Shown one piece after another: positions 22,464 through 40,680 of a stretch of 64,000 nucleotides of DNA. The DNA is from Aporhodopirellula rubra (GTDB taxonomy: Bacteria; Planctomycetota; Planctomycetia; Pirellulales; Pirellulaceae). How positions within the stretch are numbered: the first letter of the stretch is position 1; every line of letters begins with the position of its first letter. The stretch covers positions 1-64,000 of the forward strand of contig NZ_JACHXU010000014.1 of assembly GCF_014192335.1 (NCBI RefSeq), given 5' to 3'. The notes under the pieces were generated by a model. The model ran no database searches. It saw only the letters and a list, made by a program, of their open reading frames with translations, and was not told the DNA's origin. Both the position numbers and the translations under genes were made by a program.

Positions 22464-22937
22464 TCAGCCCATCTCGGCGACGAATCGAACGTAATCGGTT
22501 GCCGACACAATGCCGAGCAACTTCTTGTCATGGTTGATCACCGGGACATGATGAACTTGATGTTTGACCATCATCTTGGCGACCTCTTGAAGACAGTCGT
22601 TTTGTTCGGCGGTGACGGTGGCATTGGACATCACCGTTGCGACCTCATCACTACCCAAGCATTCCCGGATCAGATCGACGACCAAGTAGCTTTCGTCGTA
22701 GATCGCCATATCGCAATCGAGTGTCCGTTCGGCGTCTTGGATCAGACGCAGCATGTCACTGACTGTGAGGATCCCTTTGAGGGAACCGTCGTCGTCGATG
22801 ACCGGGAGCGCCGACAGATGATTCTCGGTCATCTTTTCAACCGCATCCTGGATCGTGTCAGTCTCGGTGACGGTGATCGGTCCGCGTCGCATGAAACTAT
22901 GAAGAGGAATTTGCAGATCGGTTTGTGTCGCGTTCAT
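22464..22937 (-). CDS. CBS-domain pair protein
   Basis: A 157-residue cytosolic protein consisting of two CBS motifs: MRRGPITVTETDTIQDAV...LPVIDDDGSLKGILTVSDML (about 16-65) and MSNATVTAEQNDCLQEVAKMM...VPVINHDKKLLGIVSATDYV (about 103-153). CBS pairs bind adenine nucleotides and report energy state. A stand-alone pair of this size resembles Mycobacterium Hrp1, a hypoxia-response protein, and fits the neighbourhood of universal stress proteins. A good sigma-54 promoter candidate lies 71 bases upstream on the same strand (23008-23023). Confidence 0.9.
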   Translation of the reverse strand: MNATQTDLQIPLHSFMRRGPITVTETDTIQDAVEKMTENHLSALPVIDDDGSLKGILTVSDMLRLIQDAERTLDCDMAIYDESYLVVDLIRECLGSDEVATVMSNATVTAEQNDCLQEVAKMMVKHQVHHVPVINHDKKLLGIVSATDYVRFVAEMG

Positions 22938-23007
22938 GGTCTTGCCTCGCTAAAGTTCAGACGGACGATCTCATGCACACTGCGTGATGATGATCAACGC
23001 GATGAGT

Positions 23008-23023
23008 CGCAAACCCTGTGCCC
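23008..23023 (-). promoter_or_regulatory. Sigma-54 promoter candidate for the CBS gene
   Basis: Read on the minus strand the site is GGGCAC, five bases, TTGCG. It has the invariant GG and GC with exactly ten bases between, and differs from TGGCAC-N5-TTGC at one position. The GC is 71-72 bases before the CBS start codon, a normal promoter distance. Confidence 0.6.
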
Positions 23024-23104
23024 TCCTCCGTTTTTCGTTCGTGTGTCGGCGTACACAGGGTGCTCGCGTCGAGACGTGTGATAGACGCACGATCATGCGC
23101 GACG

Positions 23105-23126
23105 CAACGCACATTTAGGTGCGTTG
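23105..23126. promoter_or_regulatory. Perfect 8-bp inverted repeat, possible activator site
   Basis: CAACGCAC (23105-23112) and GTGCGTTG (23119-23126) are exact complements around a six-base centre. The site is about 85-115 bases upstream of the CBS sigma-54 promoter, where enhancer-binding proteins normally bind. GCAC/GTGC half-sites also occur near other candidate sigma-54 promoters of the island (30578-30593, 23398-23403). Confidence 0.4.
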
Positions 23127-23467
23127 GGTGGACAGGAGAGCACATGGACGGGCGCATCCAATGTCTGCCAAATCGGATCGAAATGGATGTCGCAAAATAG
23201 AGGTAAGGCGGGTTGGCAGATAAGCACAACGCTGGGGACGTCGTCGCGTTGATCGTCATGCCAAAGATACCCTGCTTTCCCTAGTGTTCGTAAACATTTC
23301 TCCAGTACTCATAAATGAAGCTGCGATTGCGGGAAACTTGGAAGTGTCGCGATCGCCAGAGGGGAATGTGCGACGAATTTGGCCATCACGCAAATTGACG
23401 CACTTGTCTATTCCGGTCGGTCGTTGCAATCGGTTCGGTCATCAAATCAGGTGCGACTGAATACTGT

Positions 23468-23482
23468 TGGCACAATGCTTGC
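23468..23482 (+). promoter_or_regulatory. Sigma-54 promoter candidate (perfect consensus)
   Basis: TGGCAC, five bases, TTGC: every consensus position of the -24/-12 element matches with the correct spacing. It points toward the BON-domain gene, with a leader of about 250 bases. Confidence 0.65.
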
Positions 23483-23742
23483 GGCCTTAACGTGGGTAGG
23501 TCATGTTCCCTAAGCGTGCGGCAAGGAGTGGTGAAACGCCTTCCGCGTTGGGCTGCTAGGGCGTGAGCATGAGATTGGCGGTCGATGAGAGTTGCGTTCC
23601 CAAGTCGTCTTCGGACAGGGCCCGCTCAAACGAGAAAGTATGTTACGTCGAATGAGACCTTTCCATCGCGGGTTCAATCTTAAAACTGATGCAACGCATC
23701 GAAGGAATTATTGAGAACATCGCACTTCATTGGGGATCTCCT

Positions 23743-24054
23743 ATGTTCGACACGCTTGAACAGCCGACTCAATTCATTTCGCGTTCAACGAATGCCTCTT
23801 CCCACGCGGCAGACCCAACGTCCAAGCCGCGTATCGCCGGCCCTCGTCAGATCGATCCGGTCGTCGAGCGTCTTCACCGGGCCCTTGCTGATTCCAAACG
23901 ATGTGGATTGCGAAACGCGCGATGCCGATTCGATCGTGGTGTCGTCACGCTGTTAGGAACGGTTGATTCGTTCTATCTCAAACAGATTGCACAAGAAATC
24001 GTTCGCCGGGTTCCAGCGGTAAAGACGATTCGCAATCAACTGCACGTCCGTTAG
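23743..24054 (+). CDS. BON-domain protein
   Basis: A 103-residue protein. The last 65 residues form one BON domain: VVERLHRALADSKRCGLRNARCRFDRGVVTLLG, then VDSFYLKQIAQEIVRRVPAVKTIRNQLHV, ending at the stop. BON domains bind phospholipid or envelope partners and are common in osmotic and envelope stress proteins (OsmY). The first 35 residues (polar, Ser/Thr/Pro) show no signal peptide, so location is uncertain. ATG 23743 is used in place of 23689, which would add 18 residues. It lies downstream of a perfect sigma-54 promoter match. Confidence 0.78.
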   Translation: MFDTLEQPTQFISRSTNASSHAADPTSKPRIAGPRQIDPVVERLHRALADSKRCGLRNARCRFDRGVVTLLGTVDSFYLKQIAQEIVRRVPAVKTIRNQLHVR

Positions 24055-24507
24055 GGGGCAATCGCTATCGCAGAAAACCCCGCTGGCCGTGTTGTCGGGT
24101 GGACGAGCGGGCCGACGGAGTAACGCGGTTTGCCGACTCAATTGGTGCGGATTTGCTGCTCGCCCCGCGCTTCCGAATCTCTCCCAAATCGAACGTGCGG
24201 GTTCGGAACCTCATTCCCGATGACGGGCGTGTCCCCCCATCCGGGAAACGCTTTCGCATTCTTCCACCGCTCCTTTTCTATTGCGATGCCTAAGTGGCGG
24301 CCTTATTCAGCCTCCGAGGCCATTTTAGCGGAATCTTTTTCCTGGCTGGTTCAGGTGGCGAGTTGCTAGCTCGCAATTGCAGGTATTCCACTCGGGGGAG
24401 CCCTACAAAACTTGACACGTTATTGTATTACTACAAGAATGGCGAGGTCTTCCATTGCGGGGCTGCAGTGGGGCGTTCCTTGCCTCTGGATGTCAAGGGT
24501 ATTTGTC
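24055..24507. other. Intergenic region upstream of DUF1559 gene
   Basis: No gene supported. It holds a small inverted repeat (GCGAG...CTCGC, 24358-24374) and the sigma-70-like promoter listed separately. Frames on both strands are short and unlike any protein I know. Confidence 0.4.
24412..24440 (+). promoter_or_regulatory. Sigma-70-type promoter candidate
   Basis: TTGACA at 24412-24417 is a perfect -35 hexamer. Seventeen bases later AAGAAT (24435-24440) matches four of six -10 positions. It lies about 70 bases before the DUF1559 start, so this gene probably uses housekeeping sigma, unlike its neighbours. Confidence 0.45.
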
Positions 24508-25797: not shown

Positions 25798-25881
25798 CTG
25801 TTTTGGCACCGTTGATTTGAGAGGTTTAACCCGCGGGCTCGCTTCCTAACGAAGAAAACGAGGGGAATGGCGAGTACCCGT

Positions 25882-25956
25882 CCGGTGTCACCTAAAATTT
25901 ATCGCCATCTAATCACTTGGCCCCCCGATCGGGTAAGCTAGTTTTTGTGACACCGG
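25882..25956. repeat. 10-bp perfect inverted repeat around a second palindrome
   Basis: CCGGTGTCAC (25882-25891) pairs with GTGACACCGG (25947-25956). Between them lies CCCGATCGGG (25924-25933), itself a palindrome, so a cruciform or branched RNA is possible. It sits between the DUF1559 gene and the small lipoprotein gene, perhaps controlling read-through. No T-run follows. Confidence 0.4.
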
Positions 25957-26016
25957 TCGTCATCCCATGGCGTCCGGTTTCTTTTTTGTTTCGTTCATGT
26001 TCCCAATGGAATTGAA

Positions 26017-26196
26017 ATGTTGTTCACACGCTTTGCGTTCGTCGGTTTGTTGGCTCTTTCGCTGTCTTGTGTTACCGGTTGTGGTGGCAGTGAGGAGCCT
26101 CAACTTGTCGAAGGCCCCGTTGTCGAAAACGGCGGGATGTCAGAGGAAGAGTTGAACTTCGACGCACCTGAAGAAGAAACTTCGGGCGCTTATTAG
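26017..26196 (+). CDS. 59-residue lipoprotein following DUF1559
   Basis: A short frame read directly from the sequence: MLFTRFAFVGLLALSLSC, then a lipobox ending VTGCGG (Cys23) and an acidic tail (EEPQLVEGP, MSEEELNFDAPEEE). Codon choice fits coding sequence. Tiny lipoproteins with a CGG lipobox and an acidic tail commonly sit just downstream of DUF1559 genes in Planctomycetes (from memory), so the pair may work together at the envelope. No strong ribosome binding site is seen. Confidence 0.75.
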   Translation: MLFTRFAFVGLLALSLSCVTGCGGSEEPQLVEGPVVENGGMSEEELNFDAPEEETSGAY

Positions 26197-26630
26197 ACGC
26201 CGTTACCTCTGCGAGACGGCACTACTCACGTGCCGATCTCGCTTTTTTGCATTTCACGCGGGTGTCGACGCCCGTCGCAAACCTTTCTTGGCACCGCGAT
26301 CACGATGTCCGGTGCCCGTCGATGCCCCAACCTCCTCGGGTTGATTTTCTTTCGCCGGATCAGGCATTCCGAGCTAGCGCGATCACTTCTTTCACATCGC
26401 ACCGCTGTTTGATGTCTTGGATGCACCTCGATCGCCGCAACTTCTTTTTATGGGGGAGCATTTTGTTTGGCATCTGCCTGTGCAGACGTGACACGTGCGC
26501 AGCCGTTGTGAGCGTAATCGCACGCAGTGTGCTCTACCGGTGAGGTAGACGCGTAAATCGCGGTTGGTACCTCGTTTGCAACTGAGTCCATCGACCATCT
26601 TTAAACGGTAACTGGACTACGGAGTCGATC
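26197..26630. other. Intergenic region upstream of the USP gene
   Basis: 434 bases with no supported gene; the 98-codon plus frame from 26247 lacks any family features. It contains the sigma-54 candidate at 26565-26580 and, further up, alternating GTGC/CGCAC sequences (26480-26525) where an activator could bind. Confidence 0.4.
26565..26580 (+). promoter_or_regulatory. Sigma-54 promoter candidate for USP gene
   Basis: TGGTAC, five bases, TTGCA. One mismatch to TGGCAC-N5-TTGCA, with the GG and GC elements correctly spaced. It ends 50 bases before the USP start codon. Confidence 0.6.
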
Positions 26631-27587
26631 ATGCGAGTACTTTTGGCGAACGATGCTTCCAAGCATTCCCATGCCGCAGCAGAATATCTGCTGGCCCTTC
26701 CGTTTCGCAAACCGATCGACCTGGACATCGCTTCGGCGGTAATGCCGCCTGTGTTTATGGACATGGGCTCTCTCGGAGTGCCGGACGATCTCACGGAGTT
26801 TATTAGCGAAGAGTGCGAGAGTGCGAAGGAGCGGGTTGCGAAGACCGCCGAGGAATTAGGCGGCCCGGTTCACAAAGTCCAAACACACGTTTCAATCGGT
26901 CAACCGTCACACGAATTGCTTTCACTCGCTGATGAACTCCACGCGGATTTGATCGTGATGGGTGCGGTCGGTCACTCGGCTCTCGATCGGGTTCTGTTGG
27001 GGAGCGTGTCCGACTACGTTGCTACGCACAGCGAAACGTCAACACTCGTCGTTCGTCCTCGTCGTGATTCTGACATCCCTCCCAAACTGGAAAAGATCGC
27101 GATCGCGTTGTCTGGCAGTCCCGAAGATCAACGCATGATCGACTGGCTAAAACAATTTCATCTGCATCCGAGTATCGAAGTGCATTTAGTTCGTGTGCTG
27201 CGATTGGATACGTTCTATCGTCAGGACATTCGACGCAGAGCGTCCAAGTTTTGGGACGGGTTCGTGAACAGCGCCCAGGCTCAGATTTTGGACTTGGAAA
27301 CGCAACTGCAGTCGATGGGGCTAACCACGGAAACGCATCTCGTTGAATCCGATCATGTCGGCGACGCGTTGATCAACTACGCGGAAACGCATGGCTGTGA
27401 TCTCCTCGTGACGGGCGATAGCGACAGCGGAATCTTGACACGCGTGTTTATCGGCAGTACGTCACGATACGTCCTCCGTCATGCGGAATGCAGTGTTCTG
27501 ATCGTTCGTGATCGAGAAGATCGGGCTCGCGCAAAAGAATCTGTGTTGAATGAACCCAAGCGGACCAGCGCGACTGCGGTGAGTTAA
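26631..27587 (+). CDS. Tandem universal stress protein
   Basis: A 318-residue cytosolic protein made of two UspA domains. Domain 1 starts MRVLLANDASKHS and contains MGAVGHSALDRVLLGS, matching the ATP-binding G-2x-G-9x-G-S pattern. Domain 2 starts KIAIALSGSPED and has GDSDSGILTRVFIGSTS, which keeps the last loop but lacks the exact first glycine spacing. USPs support survival in growth arrest, anoxia and energy shortage. It resembles the tandem USP at 38593-39495, so the two look like paralogues. A sigma-54 site precedes it, and the P-type ATPase gene follows after 182 bases on the same strand, possibly as one operon. Confidence 0.93.
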   Translation: MRVLLANDASKHSHAAAEYLLALPFRKPIDLDIASAVMPPVFMDMGSLGVPDDLTEFISEECESAKERVAKTAEELGGPVHKVQTHVSIGQPSHELLSLADELHADLIVMGAVGHSALDRVLLGSVSDYVATHSETSTLVVRPRRDSDIPPKLEKIAIALSGSPEDQRMIDWLKQFHLHPSIEVHLVRVLRLDTFYRQDIRRRASKFWDGFVNSAQAQILDLETQLQSMGLTTETHLVESDHVGDALINYAETHGCDLLVTGDSDSGILTRVFIGSTSRYVLRHAECSVLIVRDREDRARAKESVLNEPKRTSATAVS

Positions 27588-27769: not shown

Positions 27770-30550
27770 ATGGCAATCCAAACGGTTGTTGAGTTACCGA
27801 GTGACCCGGACCACGAGCAAGAGGTGATAGCACCGCCCGGCGGTTACCATGCCGATCGGGTTGATACCGTTGTCGAGTCATTGCAAACTTCTTTGTCGAC
27901 GGGACTGACCGAGGTGGAGGTTGCAAGGCGACGCGACCAATACGGCATCAACACGCTGCATGGAGGTCAAGAGGCCCGTTGGTATCAGGTGCTCGGTCGT
28001 CAATTCACCGACGTGTTGATCCTGATCTTGATCGTCGCAGCGATCGTTTCGTTGGGTGTGGGCGAAGTCACCGACGCGGTCACGATCTTTGCGATCGTGT
28101 TGCTCAATGGGGCACTCGGCTTTGTTCAGGAATGGAAAGCAGAACGTTCTCTCGCGGCACTTCGAAACATGTTGGCTCCGACGTGCCACGTCATTCGTGA
28201 TGGCGACGAACGAACCGTGGAAGCTGATACGCTCGTTCCCGGTGACATCGTGCGTCTCGAGACCGGAGACAATGTGCCGGCCGATTTGCGGATCGCTGAA
28301 TGTCGAAACCTTCGTATCGATGAGTCGGCGTTGACAGGAGAGTCCGTCTCCGTTTTTAAACATGCCGATCCGGTCGATGCCGGAACCAATTTGGCCGAGC
28401 GAACCGATATGGCATGGATGGGAACGGCAGCAACGGGTGGCCATGGTATTGGTATTGTGGTCGCCACGGGGGGGCAAACCGAGTTCGGACGCATCGCGAC
28501 GATGACCGAAGCGATCGGACGCGACACCACGCCGTTGCAGCAAAAACTCGGCGTGCTCGGCAAACAACTCGGGCTTGCGGCGGTGGGAGTATCGGTCATT
28601 GTCGCGTTGACAGGTTGGGCGATGGGCAAACCGTTGTTGGAAATGTTCCTGACGGGTGTGTCTCTCGCGGTGGCCGTGGTGCCGGAGGGATTGCCTGCGG
28701 TGGTGACGTTAACGTTGGCACTTGGTGTGCGAGAGATGGTGCGGCGGAAAGCCTTGCTGCGTCGATTGCGTGCGGCCGAAGGTTTGGGCGCAGCGACCGT
28801 CATTTGCACGGACAAGACGGGGACTTTGACGCAAAACCAGATGACTGTCCAACGGATTTGGATGGCGAATGATGAGGTCAACGTGACCGGTGTGGGATAC
28901 GATCCTGCAGGCCATTTTGAGATTGATGGTGAAAAGATCGATCACCGAGAACACGACGGTTTGCGTCATTTGCTCCGGTCGAGTCTCCGGTGCAACCACG
29001 CGAAATTGACGAAAGAGAACGGTGTTTGGCAACAACGGGGCGCGCCCACCGAGAGTGCGTTGGTTGTCGCGGCGTTCAAGGCGTGGTTAGATCCGTCGGA
29101 TCACCACCGTGTGGTCGAAGAACACTGTTTCGATTCGACTCGAAAACGAATGACGGTGATCGAGCAATCCGGCGACAGCCTGACGGCGCATGTTAAAGGG
29201 GCCCCTGAGGTCATCCTATCACTGTGTTCGCATATCTGCGATCACGGACGCTGTCGTCAGTTGACGAAAGATGATGTCGCTCGTGTGAATATGGCCACGG
29301 AATCAATGGCGAGCCAGGGGCTACGGACGCTCGCGATCGCACGCCGCGATCTTCCCAACCATCATTCGCTCGACGCAGACAGTGTTGAGAATTCGCTCAC
29401 GCTCCTTGGCATCGTTGGGATGATGGACCCACCACGTCCGGAAGTTACTGATGCGATTGCGTTGGCGGGGACTGCGGGGATCCGTGTCTTGATGATCACG
29501 GGAGACTCAGCGGCGACCGCGTTTGCGATCGCAAAACAGATCGGATTGTCTGCGAAGAAATCGCTCCTGGGGAGTGAACTCGATGCGATGACTGACGAGG
29601 AGTTATCGCGGGATCTGAAAAGCGACGTTGTCTTCGCCCGAACAACGCCTGAGCACAAGTTGCGAATCGTGAAGGTCCTTCAGTCTCAGGGGCACGTTGT
29701 TGGAATGACTGGCGATGGCGTCAACGATGCTCCTGCGTTGAAGAAGGCTGACATCGGAATCGCGATGGGGAAACGGGGGACCGATGTCGCCAAAGGTGCA
29801 TCCGATATTGTTTTGACAGACGACAATTTCAGCTCGATCATCAGTGCGGTCGAAGAAGGTCGGCGACAATACGACAACATACAAAAGTTCGTCAGATACT
29901 TATTGTCATCGAACACCGGCGAGGTCATCGCAATCTTTGCGAATATCATCATCGGCGGACCGTTGCTGTTCCTACCGGTGCAGATTCTTTGGATGAATTT
30001 GGTCACGGACGGCTTAACCGCGGTTGCTCTCGGTTTAGAGCCTGCGGAACGTGGAACGATGCGCCGTCCGCCCCGCAGTCCTGATGAGCCCGTGTTGACG
30101 AAGTCGGGGATCGCGATGATTGCTGCCCTCGGTACTTACGTGGGCCTCGTTTCGTTGGCGTTGTTTCATTTCTACCTGCGTGAAGGTGACACTCATTCGT
30201 TGATCGTCGCTCAAACGGTCGCCTTTACCGGCATCATCGTGATTGAGAAGGTTAACGTTCTAAACTTCCGGTCGTTGCATACACCTATGAAGTCGGTCGG
30301 GTTTTTCAGTAACCCGTGGGTGTTGGTAGCGATCGTCCTAACGATCCTCTTGCAAGTTGCCGCCGTGTATGTGCCACTGCTTCAGTCGGCACTGCGTACC
30401 GTGCCACTGACATGGCAGGATTGGGCGTTGATCGTCGCCGTGGCAATGCCCGTGTTCTTGGTAACCGAGGCGGTGAAGCTGTTCGCGAATCGTGGCGAGA
30501 CCAACGAAGTCGGTACGACGGGTATCGAGTCGGCTGTGCAGTCAAAGTAG
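27770..30550 (+). CDS. Cation-transporting P-type ATPase (Ca2+ / P2A-like)
   Basis: A 926-residue inner-membrane pump. Order: N-terminal cation ATPase domain (VESLQTSLSTGLTEVEV), first TM pair, actuator domain with DESALTGESV, and TM4 with AVAVVPEGLPAVV (the PEGLP ion site of SERCA/PMR1-like pumps). The phosphorylation site DKTGTLT has Asp348; the hinge MTGDGVNDAPALKKADIGIAMG comes later, followed by the C-terminal six-helix domain (LPVQILWMNLVTDG). These features place it in the Ca2+/Mn2+ group, although bacterial members of this type may move Na+, K+ or Ca2+. Mycobacterium CtpF, part of the DosR regulon, has the same layout. No own sigma-54 site of quality was found, so it may be read from the upstream USP promoter. 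Confidence 0.93.
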   Translation: MAIQTVVELPSDPDHEQEVIAPPGGYHADRVDTVVESLQTSLSTGLTEVEVARRRDQYGINTLHGGQEARWYQVLGRQFTDVLILILIVAAIVSLGVGEVTDAVTIFAIVLLNGALGFVQEWKAERSLAALRNMLAPTCHVIRDGDERTVEADTLVPGDIVRLETGDNVPADLRIAECRNLRIDESALTGESVSVFKHADPVDAGTNLAERTDMAWMGTAATGGHGIGIVVATGGQTEFGRIATMTEAIGRDTTPLQQKLGVLGKQLGLAAVGVSVIVALTGWAMGKPLLEMFLTGVSLAVAVVPEGLPAVVTLTLALGVREMVRRKALLRRLRAAEGLGAATVICTDKTGTLTQNQMTVQRIWMANDEVNVTGVGYDPAGHFEIDGEKIDHREHDGLRHLLRSSLRCNHAKLTKENGVWQQRGAPTESALVVAAFKAWLDPSDHHRVVEEHCFDSTRKRMTVIEQSGDSLTAHVKGAPEVILSLCSHICDHGRCRQLTKDDVARVNMATESMASQGLRTLAIARRDLPNHHSLDADSVENSLTLLGIVGMMDPPRPEVTDAIALAGTAGIRVLMITGDSAATAFAIAKQIGLSAKKSLLGSELDAMTDEELSRDLKSDVVFARTTPEHKLRIVKVLQSQGHVVGMTGDGVNDAPALKKADIGIAMGKRGTDVAKGASDIVLTDDNFSSIISAVEEGRRQYDNIQKFVRYLLSSNTGEVIAIFANIIIGGPLLFLPVQILWMNLVTDGLTAVALGLEPAERGTMRRPPRSPDEPVLTKSGIAMIAALGTYVGLVSLALFHFYLREGDTHSLIVAQTVAFTGIIVIEKVNVLNFRSLHTPMKSVGFFSNPWVLVAIVLTILLQVAAVYVPLLQSALRTVPLTWQDWALIVAVAMPVFLVTEAVKLFANRGETNEVGTTGIESAVQSK

Positions 30551-30670: not shown

Positions 30671-30686
30671 CGGCGCACAAATTGCA
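30671..30686 (+). promoter_or_regulatory. Sigma-54 promoter candidate for the aldolase operon
   Basis: CGGCGC, five bases, TTGCA. The GG and GC elements and their ten-base spacing are right; two non-invariant positions differ. It ends 57 bases before the aldolase ATG. A GCAC/GTGC inverted pair (30578-30593) lies about 80 bases upstream. Confidence 0.5.
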
Positions 30687-30743: not shown

Positions 30744-31796
30744 ATGGCCACTTCAATTGAAACTCTGTTGGGAGACGACGCTCGATTTCTCTTGGATCAT
30801 GAGGCAACCACGATTGACCGAGGCCGTTTGCAACTGCCGGGGCCCGATTTTATCGAACGGGTTGTCAGCGGGAGTGATCGCAATCAGCGGGTGATAAACA
30901 ACCTCACGAGACTTTTTGATCACGGCCGTTTAGCGGGAACCGGTTACGTTTCCATCTTGCCTGTCGATCAAGGGATTGAGCACACCGCCGGGGCTTCGTT
31001 TGCCCCAAACCCGGACTACTTCGATCCGGAGAACATTGTGCGGTTGGCGATGGAGGGCGGTTGCAACGCCGTCGCGTCCACATTTGGAGTTCTCGGTGCG
31101 GTTTCTCGGAAGTATGCCCATCGCATCCCGTTTCTAGTGAAGATCAATCATAACGAATTGCTTACCTATCCGAATTCCTACGACCAAGTCATGTTCGGCG
31201 GTGTGGAGCGAGCGTTCGATATGGGCGCTGCTGCCGTTGGGGCGACAATCTACTTCGGATCTCAGGAATCGCGTCGCCAGATTGTGGATGTTGCCGAAGC
31301 GTTCGAGCACGCTCATGATCTCGGGATGGCCACGGTGCTGTGGTGTTACCTGCGCAATTCCGATTTCAAAACGGACAAAGACTATCACACGTCGGCGGAT
31401 TTGACCGGCCAAGCGAATCACTTGGGTGTCACCATTCAAGCGGACATTATCAAACAGAAACTGCCTACCAACAACGGAGGATTCACCGCGATCGGGTTCG
31501 GAAAGACTTCTCCGCTCGTTTACAACGAACTCACGTCCGAGCACCCGATCGATCTTTGTCGTTATCAGGTCGCGAACTGCTACATGGGGCGTGCTGGGCT
31601 GATTAATTCGGGCGGCGCGTCGTCGGGTGCGTCCGATCTTTCCGAAGCGGTCAAAACCGCCGTGATCAACAAACGTGCCGGCGGGACTGGGTTGATCTCA
31701 GGCCGTAAAGCGTTCCAGCGTCCGATGAAGGACGGAATCGAACTGCTGAATCGAATCCAAGACGTCTACTTGGATGACTCTATCACGATTGCTTAA
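30744..31796 (+). CDS. fbaB: Class I fructose-bisphosphate aldolase (DhnA/FbaB type)
   Basis: A 350-residue cytosolic enzyme that splits fructose-1,6-bisphosphate into dihydroxyacetone phosphate and glyceraldehyde-3-phosphate by Schiff base chemistry. The length equals E. coli FbaB. Family segments seen: [53 protein letters not shown] and [11 protein letters not shown] near the phosphate site. ATG 30744 is preferred over 30657 because GGGAG lies about ten bases upstream, and the longer frame would overlap the sigma-54 site. The small FPASDPP protein and glgX follow with short spacing, suggesting one operon that feeds glycogen carbon to glycolysis. Confidence 0.93.
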
Positions 31797-31820: not shown

Positions 31821-32129
31821 ATGAAAGACCCGTTTGTACAATCGCAGTGGGAACAGCTTTGCGATCACTTGGATCAGGTTGCTGAACATTTGGGTGAGAA
31901 AACGCACCAGGTAGCAGAATTTCGCCGTGAAGCGGAGGCGTTTCGAAATGGCGAATCGCCAGACCGCTACCAGCATCTACTCGAACGAGTCGCGCAGGCA
32001 ACCGAGATCGCGATCCGTTGGCAATCAGCGAGCGATCGGCATGAACATGACGACGCTCTCGTCGATGAAGCGAGCGATGAAAGCTTTCCCGCGAGCGATC
32101 CACCGGTGTTCAGCCACAGTCATGCCTGA
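31821..32129 (+). CDS. Small hypothetical protein with C-terminal FPASDPP motif
   Basis: A 102-residue protein with GAGGAG eight bases before the ATG. The first 75 residues are a charged helical region (DHLDQVAEHLGEKTHQVAEFRREAEAF), probably one or two helices. The tail has DEASDESFPASDPPVFSHSHA. I recognise the xESFPASDPP motif as recurring at the ends of small bacterial proteins of unknown function. The gene sits between fbaB and glgX, and its stop overlaps the glgX start by eight bases, so it is co-translated with them. A regulatory or scaffolding role in carbon mobilisation is only an inference. Confidence 0.78.
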   Translation: MKDPFVQSQWEQLCDHLDQVAEHLGEKTHQVAEFRREAEAFRNGESPDRYQHLLERVAQATEIAIRWQSASDRHEHDDALVDEASDESFPASDPPVFSHSHA

Positions 32130-34194
32130 GCCCATGTCGCGGCGATGGGAATCACGGGAAGGTTCGCCCTACCCGCTCGGTGCATCGTACCTTGAGTCCG
32201 ACGAAGCATTCAATTTTGCAATCTATTCGAAACACGCCGAACGAGTGACGTTGTTGTTGTTCAGCGAAACGGACATGACGAATCCGGTCGTGCGTTTCGA
32301 GTTCGATTACTTGTACAACAAGTCGGGGGCCGTTTGGCATTGCCGAATCCCATTGGCTTCGATGGCGGACGCAAAATACTACGGATATCAGATCGATGGT
32401 CCGGCGCCGGGAAGTACCTTTGAATTTCACGCGTTCGATCATGAAAAGCTGCTTCTCGATCCATACACGCGAGCGGTGCACTTCCCGGAAGGCTTCAATC
32501 GTGAGGCCGCACGGAGGCCCGGTTCCACCGTCGGCGTCGCGCCGTTGGGCGTTTTACCCACGGTCGGCTGTGGGTTCGATTGGGGTGACGAAACTCGTCC
32601 ACGGCATGAATTTGATTTTGTGATCTACGAATTGCATGTGCGTGGGTTAACGCAACATGAGAGTTCAGGTGTGGCTCCCGATAGGCGGGGCACATTTTTG
32701 GCCGTTGTCGACAAAATTCCGTACCTTCACGATCTCGGAGTTACCGCGGTTCAGTTGATGCCCGTTTTCCAGTTTGATCCCGACGATGGAAACTATTGGG
32801 GCTACATGCCGTTGGCGCTCTTCGCGCCCCATCATGCCTACGCCAGCAGCTCGCATCATTGCCGGCAACGCGACGAGTTTCGGACGATGGTCAAAGCGTT
32901 TCATGACGCGGGCATCGAGGTGTTGTTGGATGTGGTTTATAACCATACCTGCGAAGGTGACCACACGGGCCCGATCTACAGTTTCAAGGGAATCGATAAC
33001 AGCACCTACTACGTTGCCTCTGGTGATCAGGCGAATCCGTACGCAAACTTCAGCGGCACGGGCAATACGTTGCACACCGCCAATCGCAATGTCCGGCGTT
33101 TGGTCGTTGACAGCATGCGACATTGGGTCGACGAGATGCACGTCGACGGATTTCGGTTTGACCTCGCGTCGATCTTCACACGCAGTTCCGATGGATCCAT
33201 CAACGCGAGCGATCCGCCTATTATCGGGCAAATCGGTGCGGAGGATGATCTCGCCCATATTCGTTTGATTGCCGAGCCCTGGGACGCATCGGGCGCCTTC
33301 CAACTCGGCCGGAGTTTTCCGGGGTTGCAGTGGAGGCAGTGGAACGCTCGGTTTCGAGAATGCGTGCAAAAATTCGTTCGAGGTGATCGCGGTCTCGTGC
33401 CAGAATTAATGACACGTATCTATGGCAGTTGCGATCTTTTTCCCGATGACCGGATGGATGCGTACCGACCGTTCCAGAGTGTAAATTACGTTGCCTCGCA
33501 TGACGGTCTCACGATGGCCGATCTGGTTTCTTACTCCCGAAAGAATAATTGGGCCAACGGACATCAGAATGCAGATGGGCCCGTCGACTACAGTTTCAAT
33601 TGTGGCGTCGAAGGTTGGTTGGCGGTCACCGATGATGTGCTCGCCGAGCGAAAGTTGCGGGTGAAGAACTTTTTCGCGATCCTGATGCTGTCTGCGGGAA
33701 CACCTATGTTTCGAATGGGCGACGAGTTTCTCAATTCACAATCAGGAAACAGCAACCCGTACAACCAAGACAACGAAACGAGCTGGCTCGATTGGAATCT
33801 CACGGAACAGCACCAGGATATGCTTCGATACGTTCGAATGATGATTGCGTTCCGTAAGTCGCATCCATCGATATGTCGCTCGCGGTTTTGGCGAGATGAC
33901 ATCAAGTGGTACGGCACCGATCATTTGGTCGATCTCTCGGCGGAGTCACAACATCTCGCGTATTGTTTGCATGGTGACGTCGAAGACGACTCCGATCTGT
34001 ATGTGATTATTAACAACTCAGAACGATCGAGTTCCTTCGGAATCCAAGAAGGCGGTCCAGGATCATGGCGACGAATCATCGACACGGCCCAAACTAGTCC
34101 GCTGGATATTGTCGACGAATCCACCGCCGAACTGGTCGTGGATAGTTTCTATCTCGCATCGCCCCATAGTATTGTGGTGTTCACGCGTGAGTGA
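32122..34194 (+). CDS. glgX: Glycogen debranching enzyme (GlgX/isoamylase family)
   Basis: A protein of about 690 residues in GH13. An N-terminal CBM48 (about 20-110: YPLGASYLESDEAFNFAIYSKHAERVTLLLF) precedes the TIM barrel. Conserved barrel regions: DVVYNHT (starting at D270), DGFRFDLAS with the nucleophile Asp347, IAEPWDA carrying the acid Glu, and NYVASHDG. The NPYNQDNETSWLDW stretch is diagnostic for GlgX/TreX-type alpha-1,6-glucosidases. The enzyme removes limit-dextrin branches after phosphorylase action. The start at 32122 overlaps the preceding stop (32127-32129); the longer frame from 31927 lies wholly inside the upstream gene and is discarded. ATG 32134 is an alternative. Confidence 0.92.
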   Translation: MPEPMSRRWESREGSPYPLGASYLESDEAFNFAIYSKHAERVTLLLFSETDMTNPVVRFEFDYLYNKSGAVWHCRIPLASMADAKYYGYQIDGPAPGSTFEFHAFDHEKLLLDPYTRAVHFPEGFNREAARRPGSTVGVAPLGVLPTVGCGFDWGDETRPRHEFDFVIYELHVRGLTQHESSGVAPDRRGTFLAVVDKIPYLHDLGVTAVQLMPVFQFDPDDGNYWGYMPLALFAPHHAYASSSHHCRQRDEFRTMVKAFHDAGIEVLLDVVYNHTCEGDHTGPIYSFKGIDNSTYYVASGDQANPYANFSGTGNTLHTANRNVRRLVVDSMRHWVDEMHVDGFRFDLASIFTRSSDGSINASDPPIIGQIGAEDDLAHIRLIAEPWDASGAFQLGRSFPGLQWRQWNARFRECVQKFVRGDRGLVPELMTRIYGSCDLFPDDRMDAYRPFQSVNYVASHDGLTMADLVSYSRKNNWANGHQNADGPVDYSFNCGVEGWLAVTDDVLAERKLRVKNFFAILMLSAGTPMFRMGDEFLNSQSGNSNPYNQDNETSWLDWNLTEQHQDMLRYVRMMIAFRKSHPSICRSRFWRDDIKWYGTDHLVDLSAESQHLAYCLHGDVEDDSDLYVIINNSERSSSFGIQEGGPGSWRRIIDTAQTSPLDIVDESTAELVVDSFYLASPHSIVVFTRE

Positions 34195-34229
34195 CGATCC
34201 GCGGAGAAGGCAGTTCGCTGAGCGTGATG

Positions 34230-35282
34230 CTAGTGCGTGGTGGGGTGCCCCCAGCGATCGGAGTGCAAGACGTGAACGGCGCTCTCGGAATCGATCGTCT
34301 CGAGGCGTTTGGTAAGTGCGGCGATGTACGCTGAACGCTCTTGCTCGTCCGTGAACTCGAGTGGCCGCTGTGTCTGCAAATCTCGCAAGGATTTCATTTG
34401 GTGTCGATCTAAGAAAACGGTCAACCCGTCTAGCAAGGATCGGATTACGTCAGGTCCTTCGCGATAGATCGCCGACGTCACCATGGCAACGTCTGCTCCG
34501 GCGAGGAGAGCCTTGATCAAGTGATCGGCGTGTCCGATTCCGCCACTCGCGGCGAGCGGCATCGCGGGGCAGAAGCCATGGACTTGCATCAACGAGTCTA
34601 ACGCGTCCGTCTCGGATTCCGAGGACGTCAAACGCCAACGCGATGCGAGCTTGAGGCTATCGAGGCAGATGTCGACGGTCGGTGCCCGTCCGTGCAAGAC
34701 CAACCCCTGTGCTCCAGATTGCAATTGCCGCGCGATGTGAGGGATGCTGGTGAAATTCCGCCCCAGTTTCACGAACAGCGGAATCGTGATCGCTGCGTTC
34801 ACGTCACGAACGGCATCCAAAATCGTCGTTTCGATCTCGGCAGAGCTTTTGTATTCCCTCGCTCGGCTGTGGTACACGTTCAATTCGATGGCTGCTGCGC
34901 CCGCCTCTTGCAGCTCGCCCGCGAAATCCATCCAACCACCGGCTGTGTAACCGTTCAGGCTCGCGATGACGGGAATGTTGAGCATTGAGCTCGCTCGATT
35001 AACCAACGCGAGGTACGACTCCGCGTTCGGGCACGCCCAATTATGTCGCGACGCGTCAGCGGAATTGAGGATACGTCGCTCGCGTCCGGTGAGAGCACGG
35101 CCGATCTCAACGCTCCACTTGACGACTTGTTCCTCAAACAGCGAGGGCAACACGATCGCGCCGGCACCTGCGTTTTGCATTGCGATGCGTGTTTGCTCGT
35201 TCATGGTCATGGGACACGCGCCGATAATCACCGGCGACGTCAGGGAAAGTCCGCCAAAATCGGTGTTGAGATGTGTGTACAT
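34230..35282 (-). CDS. Dihydroorotate-dehydrogenase-like flavoprotein
   Basis: A 350-residue FMN-binding TIM-barrel protein. It starts LNTDFGGLSLTSPVIIGACPMT and contains AGAGAIVLPSLFEEQ, VIASLNGYTAGGWMDFA, ELNVYHS, IPLFVKLGRNF, GLVLHGRAP and LAASGGIGHADHLIKALLAGADVAMVTSAIYREG, all typical of the DHODH fold with its FMN-phosphate site. It belongs to the DHODH-like group often found with anaerobic or stress genes. True PyrD function is doubtful since no pyrimidine genes are near and the substrate loop differs. It converges on glgX with 35 bases between stops, and it follows the kinase/AAA gene on the minus strand. Confidence 0.85.
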   Translation of the reverse strand: MYTHLNTDFGGLSLTSPVIIGACPMTMNEQTRIAMQNAGAGAIVLPSLFEEQVVKWSVEIGRALTGRERRILNSADASRHNWACPNAESYLALVNRASSMLNIPVIASLNGYTAGGWMDFAGELQEAGAAAIELNVYHSRAREYKSSAEIETTILDAVRDVNAAITIPLFVKLGRNFTSIPHIARQLQSGAQGLVLHGRAPTVDICLDSLKLASRWRLTSSESETDALDSLMQVHGFCPAMPLAASGGIGHADHLIKALLAGADVAMVTSAIYREGPDVIRSLLDGLTVFLDRHQMKSLRDLQTQRPLEFTDEQERSAYIAALTKRLETIDSESAVHVLHSDRWGHPTTH

Positions 35283-36931: not shown

Positions 36932-36934
36932 CGA

Positions 36935-37354
36935 CTACTCCGTTTGTAAACTCATCAATTCAATTCGGTGCTTACGCATATAGGAATGGCACTCGACGCA
37001 GCGAACCGTCATCGCAACATACCCAAGCGTGGCACGGTTGATGTCTTTGTCCTGAGCGGCTTCCGCGATGAGATCAGCACTACGCCGAAAATCACGACTT
37101 TGCGATGCGTATTCTTTGGTCTGCAAGACATTCCATCCCGCCTCCATGCTGAGCAGTCGCATGCCTCTAGCGTTCGACGCAACCTTTTCGTAATCCTCCA
37201 TTGTCAATCCTTCGAGGATTGATTTCGATTTCTCCAACTTCATCCGCATCAGCGGGCTGAGCTGCGTCGCGGGTGCCGATGGAGGATCGGCATGGATAGG
37301 CAAACCAAACGCAACTGCGGCAACCACGAGAGTGCAAATGATGATCCGGTTCAT
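36935..37354 (-). CDS. Exported single-haem c-type cytochrome-like protein
   Basis: A 139-residue protein with signal peptide MNRIIICTLVVAAVAFGLPIHA. The mature part is helical and ends with one haem-binding motif CVECH (C119, C122, H123), followed by SYMRKHR. A C-terminal CxxCH in a small helical bundle is the plan of cytochrome c-prime/c556. Location is periplasm or paryphoplasm. The frame's first ATG (37387) gives residues before the signal sequence, so 37354 is chosen. It is the first gene of a likely operon with the kinase/AAA and possibly the DHODH-like gene. I found no sigma-54 match in the 215 bases upstream. Confidence 0.8.
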   Translation of the reverse strand: MNRIIICTLVVAAVAFGLPIHADPPSAPATQLSPLMRMKLEKSKSILEGLTMEDYEKVASNARGMRLLSMEAGWNVLQTKEYASQSRDFRRSADLIAEAAQDKDINRATLGYVAMTVRCVECHSYMRKHRIELMSLQTE

Positions 37355-37569
37355 GTCGATTCTCCAAAGAATGTCGTCACGCCACATGTCGTGGGTGACC
37401 GCGGGTGGGGTGTCGGTGGCTGCGATCGCAGAGCGATTTGGTCCCTTAGTGTGCTGAGCGTTAGCGTCGTTCCATGGTGTTCTGTCAGAGTGGTTGAGAA
37501 TGATTCGCGAGATCGCGGCACGTCTCGGTCTCAGGAAAATCCCACGACCTCAACAAGGAAGCTATCCGG

Positions 37570-38544
37570 TTAGATCAGCGGAAGAGGTTCGTCCTCCTGT
37601 GTTAATACCGATCCACTCGGAGCGACGGGTGACCGGAAATCGTCCGGCTTTAACGCCAACAGCGAGCAACTGATGTCCGAGATGACGGTTTCTGCGGTAT
37701 TGCCGATCAGAACACCCGATATCCCCGTCCGGCATACCGTGCCCATTACCATCAAGTCCGCCTCAACCTCGTCGGTGACATCCCGAATGACGGTGGCGGC
37801 ACTTCCTTGACGCAAATGCAAATGGATGTCGTTGGCTTCGGCGAACGGAGCCTGCAACAATTGGTCGACGGCCTGACGGACACGCGCGTGATGGTCGCGC
37901 CGCATGGATTCGATTTTTTCCGGTCCGACGTGCTGCAGCATGGAATCTTCCATCCACAATCTCCACGCGGCGACAATGTGGAGTGTCGCCCGATCACGTC
38001 GTGCGATTGAATAGGCTTGCTCGAGGATTTCACGATTCAGATTGCAGTGTTTCTGATCGGTGGATTCGACGTCGATTGCCGCAACGACCTGATCGAACTC
38101 TCCGTGCAACTGTGGTTTGAGTAACAGTACCGGGCACGGACAAATACGCAGCAGCGACGTGCCGACACTGCCGAACAAACGTCCCGTTGGCGAGAAGGCG
38201 TCTGCGTTCTTGACGACCAAGTCGTGGTCCTCGTCGATCACTCGCCTCGTGATCTCGGTGGCGGCGTCACCAACGGCAACGCACACGTCGATTGGCCGAC
38301 CGATGTCGGAGATCTCGCTCGCGATTTCCATTAAACGCCGCCGACGATCAGCCGCCACTAACGCTTCGATTTCATCTGGTTTAGCAACATCCGTCATCAG
38401 GCCGAGCACCGATGGCATCGGCTTGACCACGTCCATCAACGTCAAAGACGCTTTGTTGTCGAGTGCCAGTTGAGCGGCGCGGGTAACGGCGGACTCGCGG
38501 TGTTCGGTCCCCGCGTAGACGAGAATGTTGTTGAAGCGTTTCAT
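37570..38544 (-). CDS. Tandem universal stress protein (UspE-like)
   Basis: A 324-residue protein with two Usp domains. Domain 1 starts FNNILVYAGTEHRESAV and has GRLFGSVGTSLLRICPCPVLLLKP; the first glycine of the ATP motif is replaced (NADAFSPTG), so it may not bind ATP. Domain 2 ends MVMGTVCRTGISGVLIGNTAETVI, the form seen in E. coli UspE. It is thus a different subtype from the other two USPs of this window. It begins 48 bases after the end of the upstream USP gene on the same strand, so both should share the sigma-54 candidate at 39561-39576. Confidence 0.92.
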   Translation of the reverse strand: MKRFNNILVYAGTEHRESAVTRAAQLALDNKASLTLMDVVKPMPSVLGLMTDVAKPDEIEALVAADRRRRLMEIASEISDIGRPIDVCVAVGDAATEITRRVIDEDHDLVVKNADAFSPTGRLFGSVGTSLLRICPCPVLLLKPQLHGEFDQVVAAIDVESTDQKHCNLNREILEQAYSIARRDRATLHIVAAWRLWMEDSMLQHVGPEKIESMRRDHHARVRQAVDQLLQAPFAEANDIHLHLRQGSAATVIRDVTDEVEADLMVMGTVCRTGISGVLIGNTAETVISDISCSLLALKPDDFRSPVAPSGSVLTQEDEPLPLI

Positions 38545-38592
38545 GAGTCTGACTTCCAGATCGGGCGTTAGGGAAGGAGTCGCGTGTGCGGA

Positions 38593-39495
38593 TTACGCAC
38601 CGTGGGCCCCGATTTCTTCCATCTCTTTCTTTTTTCCACCGTGAATCATTCGGTTGCGAGTGATCCAGACGCTGCAGGGAGCGTGTCGAAGGACATACCG
38701 CGTCATGCTGCCCATCAAAACACGTCCAAGACGCGTTCGCGGAGTTTCTCCAACCACCATCAAATCGACTTCATGCGATTCGGCGTATCTCACCAGCCCT
38801 TCACCGATGTGATCGCTTTCGATGAGAAGTCCCTTGGCGTTGGGAGCCGAGTCGTGTAGTGCAGCGGCCGCTCGCTGGATCGATTCCGGGGACACCTTTG
38901 GCGGAGGTGCATCGAAAAAGCGATCCGGATAACACACCGAGATCAGCCGCACGTTGCTTTCGGCGCCCCAATCGAATTCGGCGAATTCTTCGATTGCCGC
39001 CTGTGCGGGGCCGGCGTCTTCGTAGCCGATCAAGACACGAAGCGGATGGACACCCTCAACAGCGCCGGTCGGGCGAATCACCAAGACACTGCAGGGTGCG
39101 TGTGTCGCGACGTAGTCACTCGTGCTGCCCAACAAAACGCGGGCGATACCAGCGTGCCCCGTTGCACCGAGGACAACTAGCTCAGGGTGAATCTCGCGAG
39201 CAACGGCGGTGATCGTTTCCGCCGGATGTCCCTCACGTACGATCTGTCTTAATACGACATTGGCACCCGTGAACATCTCCTGCACGCTCGCGAACGCTTT
39301 GTCTGCGAGTTTGCGTTCTCTCGCCAGACAGGTCTCGTACCAATCGCCGGCCAAGTAGGTTTTCTGGGCGCCGGGAACGTAGATCACCGTCACAACGGTC
39401 AACTCGATCTGCTCATCGTGTGGCAAATGCGCGAGGAAGCGGGCCGCGTCATTCGCTGTCGAGGAACCATCGGTCGCGAGTAAAATGGACTTCAT
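38593..39495 (-). CDS. Tandem universal stress protein
   Basis: A 300-residue protein with two Usp domains. Domain 1: MKSILLATDGSSTANDA at the start and LGATGHAGIARVLLGSTSDYVATHAPCSVLVIR, a full G-2x-G-9x-G-S ATP-binding pattern. Domain 2: VLIGYEDAGPAQAAIEEF and GETPRTRLGRVLMGSMTRYVLRHAPCSVWITR. It closely parallels the USP at 26631-27587 (shared YVATH and YVLRHA segments). First gene of a two-USP operon, preceded by a sigma-54 candidate 66 bases upstream. The ATG has AAGGAG spaced seven bases, a good ribosome binding site on the minus strand. Confidence 0.93.
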   Translation of the reverse strand: MKSILLATDGSSTANDAARFLAHLPHDEQIELTVVTVIYVPGAQKTYLAGDWYETCLARERKLADKAFASVQEMFTGANVVLRQIVREGHPAETITAVAREIHPELVVLGATGHAGIARVLLGSTSDYVATHAPCSVLVIRPTGAVEGVHPLRVLIGYEDAGPAQAAIEEFAEFDWGAESNVRLISVCYPDRFFDAPPPKVSPESIQRAAAALHDSAPNAKGLLIESDHIGEGLVRYAESHEVDLMVVGETPRTRLGRVLMGSMTRYVLRHAPCSVWITRNRMIHGGKKKEMEEIGAHGA

Positions 39496-39560
39496 CAGAT
39501 ACTCCTTCGAATCGAACTCACCAATCGCACTTCGGTGCCAGGTATGCCTCGAATGATCGT

Positions 39561-39576
39561 TGCATTCCGGGTACCA
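39561..39576 (-). promoter_or_regulatory. Sigma-54 promoter candidate for the USP pair
   Basis: On the minus strand: TGGTAC, five bases, ATGCA. GG and GC are correctly spaced, with two mismatches to TGGCAC-N5-TTGC. It lies 66 bases before the USP start. Confidence 0.5.
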
Positions 39577-39684
39577 AACCTCAAAACCTCTTCAACTCGG
39601 CTGTTCCAGAGAAACCTCCCGTGCACCCACGCACAGGCGCGCAGATGTGACCAACCTTGCCCTGGCGTTGACTCCTACTGCCAA

Positions 39685-40680
39685 TCAGTTCGGTGTGATT
39701 CGACCGTGTCCCTCTTCCCACATCGAAGGCAGTTCGGGGTACGGTGATTGACCGGCAACTGGTTGATGAAAATTGCAATGAGTTGTGTAGTGTTCGCGAC
39801 ACTCGTCTTCGCGACCGCGCACGATTCGGCAGCCTTGCAATTTGCCGAACTGCGACGTGATCACGGTCCACCGACCATGTGACTGCGCGTCGTCGCGGAA
39901 GATTACAACCCAATCATGAGTCGTGTTAAGTTCATGTGCTCGAGCGGTGTTGGAGAACATCGCTGTGTAGTGTCGTCCGCCGCGTTCAGTATGAAGGATC
40001 GGTAGCCACGCGATGTTCTTTGGGTTGAACTTCGAAGGTGAGATTTTGGGCAGTTGACCGGCGATCGCCTTTTCCCGGTACTCCTCGTCAATGTCCAACA
40101 GTTCCTTGATCGGCACGGCCTTTCCTTCGTCAATTTCCGCGCCAGGTTGTGATGGCGAGCCCTCCGTGAGTTTCACTGCAAGCGAGTCTTTGATCGCTTG
40201 AACGCGTTTGCGTCCGATGCCGGGAACCCGTTCGAGACGACCCTCCCATGCGGCCGCGTCGAGTTCCGCGAGTGTCTCGATGTGAAGGTGTTCGTGAATC
40301 CGATGCGATAGCTCTCGCCCGATACCGGGCACCGTTGAAAACAGCGTCTCCGCATGTGATTCCCCACGAAGACGATCGAGCAGCGACATCCGTCCGGTTT
40401 GAAGGTATTGCTGGACCAAGTTCGCGATCGAGTTTCCGACCGATGGCAGCGCGATGAGTCCTTCAATGCCGTCATGTTCGACTAAGACACGGACTGACGT
40501 TGGGAGGCTCCGGATCGTTTTGGCCGCCGCATGATACGCACGGACTCGAAATTCGCTGGCCTTCTGATCATTGAGAAGCTGAGCGATTTCATCGAGCGTT
40601 TGCGCGATCTGCTGATTCTCGTGAAGCGAATCGATCTCGTCGCTGGCGTGCAGCGGATCGGATGAGTTCAGGACTGCCAT
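39685..40680 (-). CDS. Helix-hairpin-helix protein related to the PolX N-terminal region
   Basis: A 331-residue protein. Residues of about 20-180 match the N-terminal part of family X DNA polymerases: an 8-kDa-like domain (IAQTLDEIAQLLNDQKASEFRVRAYHAAAKTIRSLP) and helix-hairpin-helix turns IALPSVGNSIAN, VPGIGRELSHRI and VPGIGRKRVQAI. The nucleotidyltransferase palm with its catalytic Asp residues is absent. In its place is a C-terminal domain of about 120 residues (AWLPILHTERGGRHYTAMFSNT, DWVVIFRDD) that I do not recognise by name. It likely binds DNA without polymerase activity; a repair role in the stress island is inference. Only a weak sigma-54-like site (40777-40792, minus) lies upstream. 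Confidence 0.82.
   Translation of the reverse strand: MAVLNSSDPLHASDEIDSLHENQQIAQTLDEIAQLLNDQKASEFRVRAYHAAAKTIRSLPTSVRVLVEHDGIEGLIALPSVGNSIANLVQQYLQTGRMSLLDRLRGESHAETLFSTVPGIGRELSHRIHEHLHIETLAELDAAAWEGRLERVPGIGRKRVQAIKDSLAVKLTEGSPSQPGAEIDEGKAVPIKELLDIDEEYREKAIAGQLPKISPSKFNPKNIAWLPILHTERGGRHYTAMFSNTARAHELNTTHDWVVIFRDDAQSHGRWTVITSQFGKLQGCRIVRGREDECREHYTTHCNFHQPVAGQSPYPELPSMWEEGHGRITPN

Follow-up and report, generated by a model that had tools for sequence, protein, structure and literature searches.

A candidate sigma-54 regulon of universal stress protein genes in Aporhodopirellula rubra and its relatives, with a possible low-oxygen input

Sigma-54 elements and genes of the locus

We analysed a stretch of 64,000 nucleotides (nt) from the planctomycete Aporhodopirellula rubra (contig NZ_JACHXU010000014.1, positions 1 to 64,000; "the window" in what follows), in which genes for universal stress proteins (USPs), a two-CBS-domain protein, a BON-domain protein, a P-type cation ATPase, an FbaB-type aldolase and a GlgX-like debranching enzyme lie close to promoter elements of the sigma-54 (-24/-12) type. 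An earlier note, made from the letters of the window, had listed five such elements and proposed that together they form one RpoN (sigma-54) regulon. All five are present at the positions it gave, with exact GG-N10-GC spacing, and the BON element, which it had called a perfect match, is the sole TGGCAC-N5-TTGC of the window. A sixth element precedes the gene at 20538 (Table 1).

Table 1. Promoter elements, enhancer matches and genes of the window
Feature	Position	Strand	Remarks
Sigma-54 element, CBS	23008-23023	minus	GGGCACAGGGTTTGCG; 71 nt before CBS gene start
Sigma-54 element, BON	23468-23483	plus	TGGCACAATGCTTGCG; 260 nt before BON gene, by coordinates
Sigma-54 element, USP 26631	26565-26580	plus	TGGTACCTCGTTTGCA; 51 nt before USP
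Sigma-54 element, FbaB	30671-30686	plus	CGGCGCACAAATTGCA; 58 nt before FbaB
Sigma-54 element, USP pair	39561-39576	minus	TGGTACCCGGAATGCA; 66 nt before USP; -12 is ATGC rather than TTGC
Sixth sigma-54 element (absent from the earlier note)	20463-20478	plus	CGGCATGTGTTTTGCG; 60 nt before 20538; strong enhancer match
Enhancer, USP 26631	26508-26525		GTGAGCGTAATCGCACGC; score 16.6; 39 nt upstream of -24
Enhancer of the 20463 promoter	20360-20377		GCGTGCCCATTGTCACGC; score 16.0; motif from relatives only
Enhancer match, USP pair	39619-39636		score 11.6; 42 nt upstream of -24
Weak enhancer-like match, CBS	23097-23114		score 8.8; not significant alone
Glutaredoxin-like-segment protein, 564 amino acids (aa)	20538-22232	plus	TIGR02196 6e-9, below its cut-off; no Pfam match at 1e-5; likely membrane-bound, judged by eye
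Two-CBS-domain protein, 157 aa	22464-22937	minus	PF00571 1e-29, two stretches
BON-domain protein, 103 aa	23743-24054	plus	PF04972 2.9e-11; homolog in genome G012 63% identical
Tandem USP, 318 aa	26631-27587	plus	two PF00582 matches
P-type cation ATPase, Ca2+-ATPase-like, 926 aa	27770-30550	plus	
Class I fructose-bisphosphate aldolase, FbaB type	30744-31796	plus	NF006707 9e-197
Small open reading frame (ORF) between FbaB and GlgX, 102 aa	31821-32129	plus	no Pfam match
GlgX-like glycogen debranching enzyme	32122-34194	plus	TIGR02100 5e-168, below its cut-off
Dihydroorotate dehydrogenase (DHOD)-like protein	34230-35282	minus	NF005741 4e-98
Kinase-like protein, AAA_33 domain, 520 aa	35369-36931	minus	PF13671 2e-32
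Small CxxCH protein	36935-37354	minus	c-type cytochrome-like by eye; no Pfam match at 1e-5
Tandem USP, 324 aa	37570-38544	minus	
Tandem USP, 300 aa	38593-39495	minus	

Sites were scored with a sigma-54 matrix that approximates the published consensus, not one taken from a published table, and genes were called by a simple script of our own that did not pick up the BON gene. Among genes that have 60 nt or more free upstream, a site scoring at least 11.5 lies 15-200 nt before the start in 5 of 25 window genes and in 6 of 378 genes elsewhere (Fisher p = 2e-4), the background being 800 kb from four other contigs of the same genome. The five window genes are those behind four of the earlier sites (the BON gene being uncalled) together with the gene behind the sixth. 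Within the genome as a whole, seven USP genes are found; four of these have a site directly upstream, and the one at 37570-38544 follows another USP. The genome also holds one rpoN gene (PF04552, 5.9e-62), the absence of which the earlier note had named as fatal to its proposal. A sigma-54-like box, TGGCACTGAATTCGCT, stands upstream of this apparent rpoN (L041:8072-8087, contig C29 of the genome, which is labelled G000).

The sites are kept at orthologous loci in other Pirellulaceae, where the earlier note had suggested looking. Ten orthologs of the USP at 26631 occur in relatives (56-79% identity), and all 11 genes, our own included, carry a site of at least 10.5 at 41-86 nt before the start codon, a threshold reached by 9 of the 378 background genes; among more distant USP paralogs (33-40% identity) a site is present in 1 of 6. 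In the relative G012 we find GGGCATATGTTTTGCA 71 nt before its CBS gene and TGGCACATTGGTTGCG 251 nt before its BON gene, and in G008 CGGCGCACGAATTGCA 63 nt before FbaB, which has a site at a comparable place in G001 as well. The USP-pair orthologs of G008 and G001 have counterpart sites too. Over 45 loci of relatives (L122-L166) we counted the upstream regions that have a site of at least 11.5: these are 54 of 96 for stress-family genes, 15 of 246 for other genes and 13 of 70 for regulator genes, as against 11 of 96, 4 of 246 and 4 of 70 on the opposite strand; 100 column-permuted matrices gave a mean of 0.8 of the 96 stress-gene upstream regions, with a maximum of 4. The difference between stress and other regions has p = 4e-23, uncorrected for relatedness, and since many loci are closely related (L141-L144, L151/L153) such p-values overstate the independence of the data.

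The five genes running from the USP pair to the DHOD-like gene likely form one operon, hereafter the USP operon, and the gene order of this cluster recurs in G008 and G001. Its CxxCH protein resembles, by eye, the product of L037:3092-3559, a gene with its own site and enhancer. The P-type ATPase at 27770 has no site of at least 11.5 of its own in the window, and in G012 and G001 it has one (L124, L125). As for the CBS protein, a specific kinship with mycobacterial Hrp1 was considered and found no support: Rv2626c does match (8e-10) but is far from the best match.

Two further observations concern the flank of the USP operon. A 1738-aa protein that by eye looks like a CheB/CheR-PAS-kinase fusion (41299-46515, minus) adjoins the operon, as it does in G008 (L123:3704-8938). 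Moreover, a site at 40989-41004 on the minus strand, CGGTACGTCGTTTGCG, lies about 310 nt before an HhH-domain (PolX-N-like) gene at 39685-40680, and in G008 TGGTACAGCGTTTGCC (L123:3410-3425) lies 317 nt before the ortholog of that gene; there is no clearly shared ORF between site and gene, so the interval may hold a long leader or a small RNA.

A shared palindrome and a candidate activator

Sigma-54 promoters are opened by activators bound to upstream enhancers, and many promoters of the proposed regulon share a palindrome. An expectation-maximization motif search, which replaced a counting of dyads that had given weak hints, found in 77 upstream regions a palindrome with a fitted share of 0.83. 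Trained on 64 promoters of relatives only, the search returned GtGTGCganntcGCACaC with a log-likelihood of 124.5, compared with 41.1, 33.8 and 41.1 for three shuffles. This palindrome of the relatives, GYGTGCG-N4-CGCACRC, stands also before the window USP at 26631. Matches scoring at least 10 occur in 41 of the 77 promoters, and 34 of these 41 lie 29-113 nt from the -24 element, while the 95th percentile of the background (473 regions) is 9.0. Of the 13 promoters scored in our own genome, those elsewhere are three of a cluster on contig C5, with 13.5, 12.0 and 13.5, two of an Hsp20/USP pair on C4, with 12.2 each, and that of a kinase operon on C18, with 16.6. A window site inside a coding region, at 6805, has an enhancer score of 6.9, near background.

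The enhancer also occurs before USP orthologs and carries over to loci outside the training set. Of the 11 USP 26631 orthologs, 7 have a match of at least 10 and one a match of 9.4; in 26 loci outside training such a match accompanies 22 of 35 sites, against 16 of the 473 background regions, and in the distant Planctomycetaceae loci L157, L158, L161, L163 and L165 it accompanies 8 of 8. Within the same 26 loci it is found at 8 of 10 sites before genes of the activator family described below, which suggests self-activation in the relatives. The enhancer is not general to sigma-54 promoters, being present at 3 of 11 in the C5:280-340k cluster and at 0 of 6 at an activator locus on C21. The looser pattern GYGWGCGN4CGCWCRC has two exact matches in the genome, one at 26508-26525 and one inside a gene, a count that is partly circular because the pattern was written after the window enhancer had been seen.

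Which protein would bind these palindromes? The genome encodes 18 strong sigma-54 activators among 22 matches. Our candidate is the NtrC-type (REC-AAA+-Fis) protein at C5:172197-173657, together with its paralog at C18:107892-109340; both have PF00158 and HTH_8 matches and a GSFTGA loop of the GAFTGA type, and the C5 gene lies 5 kb from a USP with its own site and enhancer. At E of 1e-110 or better the family occurs in 40 of 60 genomes, our own included. A listed USP lies within 10 kb of at least 25 of 53 activator loci, in at least 23 of the 40 genomes, where about 0.5 loci would be expected by chance (0.47, assuming 7 Mb genomes and listed USPs only). Loci of relatives of the activator were taken from Rhodopirellula, Aporhodopirellula, Stieleria, Neorhodopirellula, Rubripirellula, Fuerstiella and others. 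Among the 30 loci L137-L166, many of which are on short contigs, a USP was called beside the activator in 11, and several add genes for an AAA_33 kinase, a DHOD-like protein, Hsp20, phosphoenolpyruvate (PEP) synthase, a CBS protein or hydrogenase. (The gene L037:285-2714 is a PEP synthase rather than PpdK.) A tree of 56 activators places the C5 and C18 proteins in a clade of 38 rows (support 96/99) with 35 of the 38 rows from relatives, and the Pirellulaceae part of this clade has support 100/100; of the other 16 activators of the genome only C7 (L004) enters this clade, at its base. No USP adjoins the more distant activator relatives (29-47% identity; L167-L188, 20 of them outside the planctomycetes and L168 and L169 within) in the 19 of these 22 loci that have a gene listing.

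The C5 cluster with few enhancers is a second dense group of sigma-54 sites, with 11 TGGYAYN5YTGC matches in 51 kb (G000 C5:285744-336864, L118-L120), and 8 of its 11 promoters are without the enhancer of the USP promoters. It has an NtrC-type activator gene divergent from that of a hybrid kinase, and genes for DUF421, DUF1206, BrkB, APP1, a glycogen debranching enzyme (GDE), a glycosyltransferase and Hsp20. At L118:6037-10444 a sigma-54 site precedes a pyridoxal-phosphate-dependent enzyme (PALP) gene followed by dehydrogenase-like and decarboxylase-like genes, a group that by eye resembles a small metallophore-type cluster.

Candidate oxygen-sensing kinases and a proposed mechanism

On C18 the activator gene is divergent from an operon for a REC-PAS-HisKA-CA kinase, a FixL-type kinase and a two-receiver protein. 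The REC kinase (L050:6784-8235), like a second one at L037:11257-12750, has Response_reg, PAS, HisKA and HATPase_c domains, and the two-receiver (REC-REC) protein (L050:4808-5545) has two Response_reg stretches. The PAS domain of the FixL-type kinase (L050:5558-6787) matches PDB 1dp6 at 3.2e-37 with the His and Arg aligned, the residues which in FixL hold the heme and sense oxygen. Of 47 loci examined, that of the query among them, 12 contain FixL-type ORFs, 11 of these with the HDxY motif; in G001 the gene shares one cluster with USPs and the activator. Taking the top 22 matches of a FixL search that covered 40 of the 60 genomes, a FixL match lies within 10 kb of at least 11 of 53 activator loci.

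Two further groups of genes may bear on oxygen. The USP near the C5 activator, which has both site and enhancer, is followed by a sulfhydrogenase-like NiFe hydrogenase (L037:13086-18401, G000 C5:178-183k), identified by NCBIfam matches below cut-off, and by apparent hyp maturation genes, judged by eye. Elsewhere on C5, a TGGCAC-N5-TTGTT box stands before a cbb3 oxidase fusion gene (COX1 plus FixO; L262:6699-9319, G000 C5:81.7-84.3k) together with two or three matches to the enhancer, and the pair of site and enhancer is found in our own genome, in G008 and G012 and, weaker, in G010. The hydrogenase genes and the cbb3 enhancer fit a low-oxygen mechanism, while the absence of the cbb3 pair from the other 11 of 15 genomes does not.

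The closest known system, with similar parts, is reported from Myxococcus xanthus, where a hypoxia regulon under NmpRSTU and sigma-54 takes in CBS, USP, P-type ATPase and cbb3 genes; according to the portions of the paper drawn on here, NmpR is NtrC-like, NmpS a REC-kinase, NmpT a REC-REC protein and NmpU a heme kinase, a target is induced by hypoxia, and in the model the heme kinase keeps the REC-kinase off in oxygen (PMC11841059). As far as those portions go, our system shares with it the NtrC-like activator, the REC-HisKA-CA kinase, the two-receiver protein, a heme sensor kinase and sigma-54, as well as a regulated promoter before the kinase operon and CBS, USP, P-type ATPase and cbb3 genes among the targets, and here, as in Anaeromyxobacter, activator gene and kinase operon are transcribed divergently (PMC11841059). 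The same portions describe a protoglobin sensor there, whereas the kinase at the NmpU place here is of the FixL heme-PAS type, with no globin domain found by Pfam, and an enhancer GCGCA-N5-TGCGC there as opposed to GYGTGCG-N4-CGCACRC here; the Myxococcus consensus is not enriched in our promoters (with up to 2 mismatches allowed, 11 of 79 have it and shuffles give 12.1). The targets predicted here, unlike those reported for NmpRSTU, include Hsp20, PEP synthase, DHOD-like genes and several tandem USPs. Since the sensor domain and the enhancer differ, and since the comparison covered domain make-up, gene order and motifs, we call the planctomycete system one that appears to work like Nmp rather than a member.

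Taken together, we consider it probable that the genes of the window include part of a sigma-54 regulon conserved in Pirellulaceae, with an NtrC-type activator and a low-oxygen input. The C5 and C18 activators would bind the palindromes upstream of -24 and open RNA polymerase-sigma-54 at the target promoters, the predicted targets being the USPs, the Ca2+-type P-type ATPase, small heat-shock and redox genes, the C18 kinase operon and, in relatives, the gene of the activator itself. How could oxygen enter such a circuit? We infer that in its presence the FixL-type heme-PAS kinase would inhibit the REC-kinase, and that low oxygen would lift this inhibition; the freed REC-kinase would then phosphorylate the activators, leading to binding at the palindromes and switching on the sigma-54 promoters of the USPs, the pump and the USP operon. 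Loss of oxygen is the most likely input, because the C18 operon divergent from the activator has the set of parts reported for NmpRSTU.

Alternatives, precedents and significance

How much of the original proposal of one regulon stands? For the USP at 26631 and the USP-pair cluster, sigma-54 control is supported by rpoN, by conserved sites, by the enhancer that they share and by the activator family found near USPs. The promoters of CBS, BON and FbaB probably belong as well, though as weaker members, and we are less sure of their inclusion in one regulon with the USPs because their enhancer scores (8.8, 6.5 and 6.1) are near background. It is conceivable, if rather doubtful, that several separate sigma-54 regulons meet in the window, with the USPs and the 20463 promoter under the C5/C18 activators and CBS, BON and FbaB under another activator or matched by chance. 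The enhancer scores of 16.6, 16.0 and 11.6 for USP 26631, 20463 and the USP pair divide the promoters in just this way, and with 18 strong activator genes another regulator is available; however, the sites before CBS and BON in G012, and before FbaB in G008, are alike in sequence and in distance to the gene, and a CBS or FbaB gene is found in the activator clusters of some relatives, e.g. L128, L149 and L140. That all five sites are merely chance matches to a short and common motif we regard as highly improbable. In its favour, GGYRYN5TTGC occurs 7 times in the 64 kb where 4.4 are expected, a count reached by 22 of 100 shuffles, and TGGYAYN5YTGC has 119 matches genome-wide against 177 for the reversed pattern; since neither window nor genome shows an excess, raw motif counting was dropped as evidence. 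The concentration of matrix hits before these genes, for which the earlier note had proposed a check, does exceed chance. Placement, conservation in orthologs, the matrix and strand controls and the separate enhancer motif all speak against chance.

Other results weigh against our preferred reading, a conserved regulon with low-oxygen input, as do the weak enhancer scores of CBS, BON and FbaB. In the genome two USP genes, on C3 and C24, lack a good site immediately before them, and no enhancer match of at least 8 is found for 3 of the 11 USP 26631 orthologs. The held-out sets include orthologs or close relatives of training promoters and so are not fully independent. With up to one mismatch the enhancer pattern has 58 places in the genome compared with 89 for its reverse, and of 8 such places inspected 7 lie inside genes and 1 before the cbb3 oxidase, so that the plain pattern is informative only together with a sigma-54 site. 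As to oxygen, the PAS kinase encoded next to the C5 activator shows no FixL heme motif, by eye, and is not among the FixL-type ORFs counted above; the FixL-type gene of the genome sits with the C18 paralog rather than with the C5 activator, and the cbb3 pair is confined to 4 of 15 genomes, three having TTGT and one GTGT as the -12. The regulon and its activator may be real and the signal something else, such as general envelope, starvation or metal stress, as an annotation of the ZraSR type would suggest, a reading that we judge unlikely. The lack of a heme motif in the kinase next to the C5 activator would suit this, as would the second sigma-54 stress cluster at C5:285-337k with its other activator, and the relevant part of a published survey assigns Planctomycetota NtrC-type regulators to ZraR (PMC12316311). 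On the other side stand the heme-PAS kinases near the activator loci, the hydrogenase after the USP beside the C5 activator, and the cbb3 oxidase with its enhancer in our genome and three close relatives.

The earlier note knew of no such regulon in this group, a statement that now has to be narrowed. Studholme and Dixon (2004) reportedly dealt with Pirellula. In Planctomycetia, sigma-54 promoters have been found enriched before UspA (COG0589) genes, and COG0517 (CBS) is named among the Planctomycetes COGs; the sections of that study used here name no USP activator, enhancer, oxygen sensor or joint regulon (PMC12316311). The main text of another paper mentions rpoN, and a term search of it returned neither "universal stress" nor "UspA" (PMC2754498). 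A parallel in Myxococcus is likewise published, as far as the portions cited above describe it (PMC11841059). Among the open-licence papers that literature searches listed, no title or abstract opening describes such a joint regulon, its activator or a planctomycete oxygen sensor. The kind of system is known; what appears to be new, within the literature covered, is its planctomycete form, in which a FixL-type sensor goes with an enhancer of its own.

Two classical systems provide a wider frame. FixL-FixJ of rhizobia also uses a heme-PAS kinase, and an enhancer before the cbb3 oxidase is present here in the 4 genomes mentioned; no FixJ-type partner lies beside the kinase here, its neighbours being the NtrC-type activator, the REC-kinase and the REC-REC protein. 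The DosR/DosS regulon of Mycobacterium comprises USPs, a CBS protein, a cation pump beside a USP and a small heat-shock protein, and this functional gene set is shared by the planctomycete. The earlier comparison with DosR thus fits in gene content and not in regulator, which is LuxR-type with a heme GAF sensor in Mycobacterium and NtrC-type, with sigma-54 and a heme PAS, here. It is a tentative idea, one to which we lend slightly less than half of our confidence, that planctomycetes have a DosR-like low-oxygen dormancy programme run through sigma-54, in which the FixL-type kinase, the REC-kinase and the NtrC-type activators control USPs, the pump, hydrogenase, small heat-shock and carbon-store genes.

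More generally, our analysis turns a list of sites into a testable circuit with a named activator, an enhancer, a set of promoters and a candidate oxygen sensor, in a phylum for which little regulatory knowledge exists. If the proposed circuit is right, Nmp-type relays would occur outside the myxobacteria, and their heme sensors, a globin or a PAS domain, would be exchangeable. As a corollary, the dormancy gene set of mycobacteria would recur in planctomycetes under an unrelated regulator, with control of the all-or-none type.

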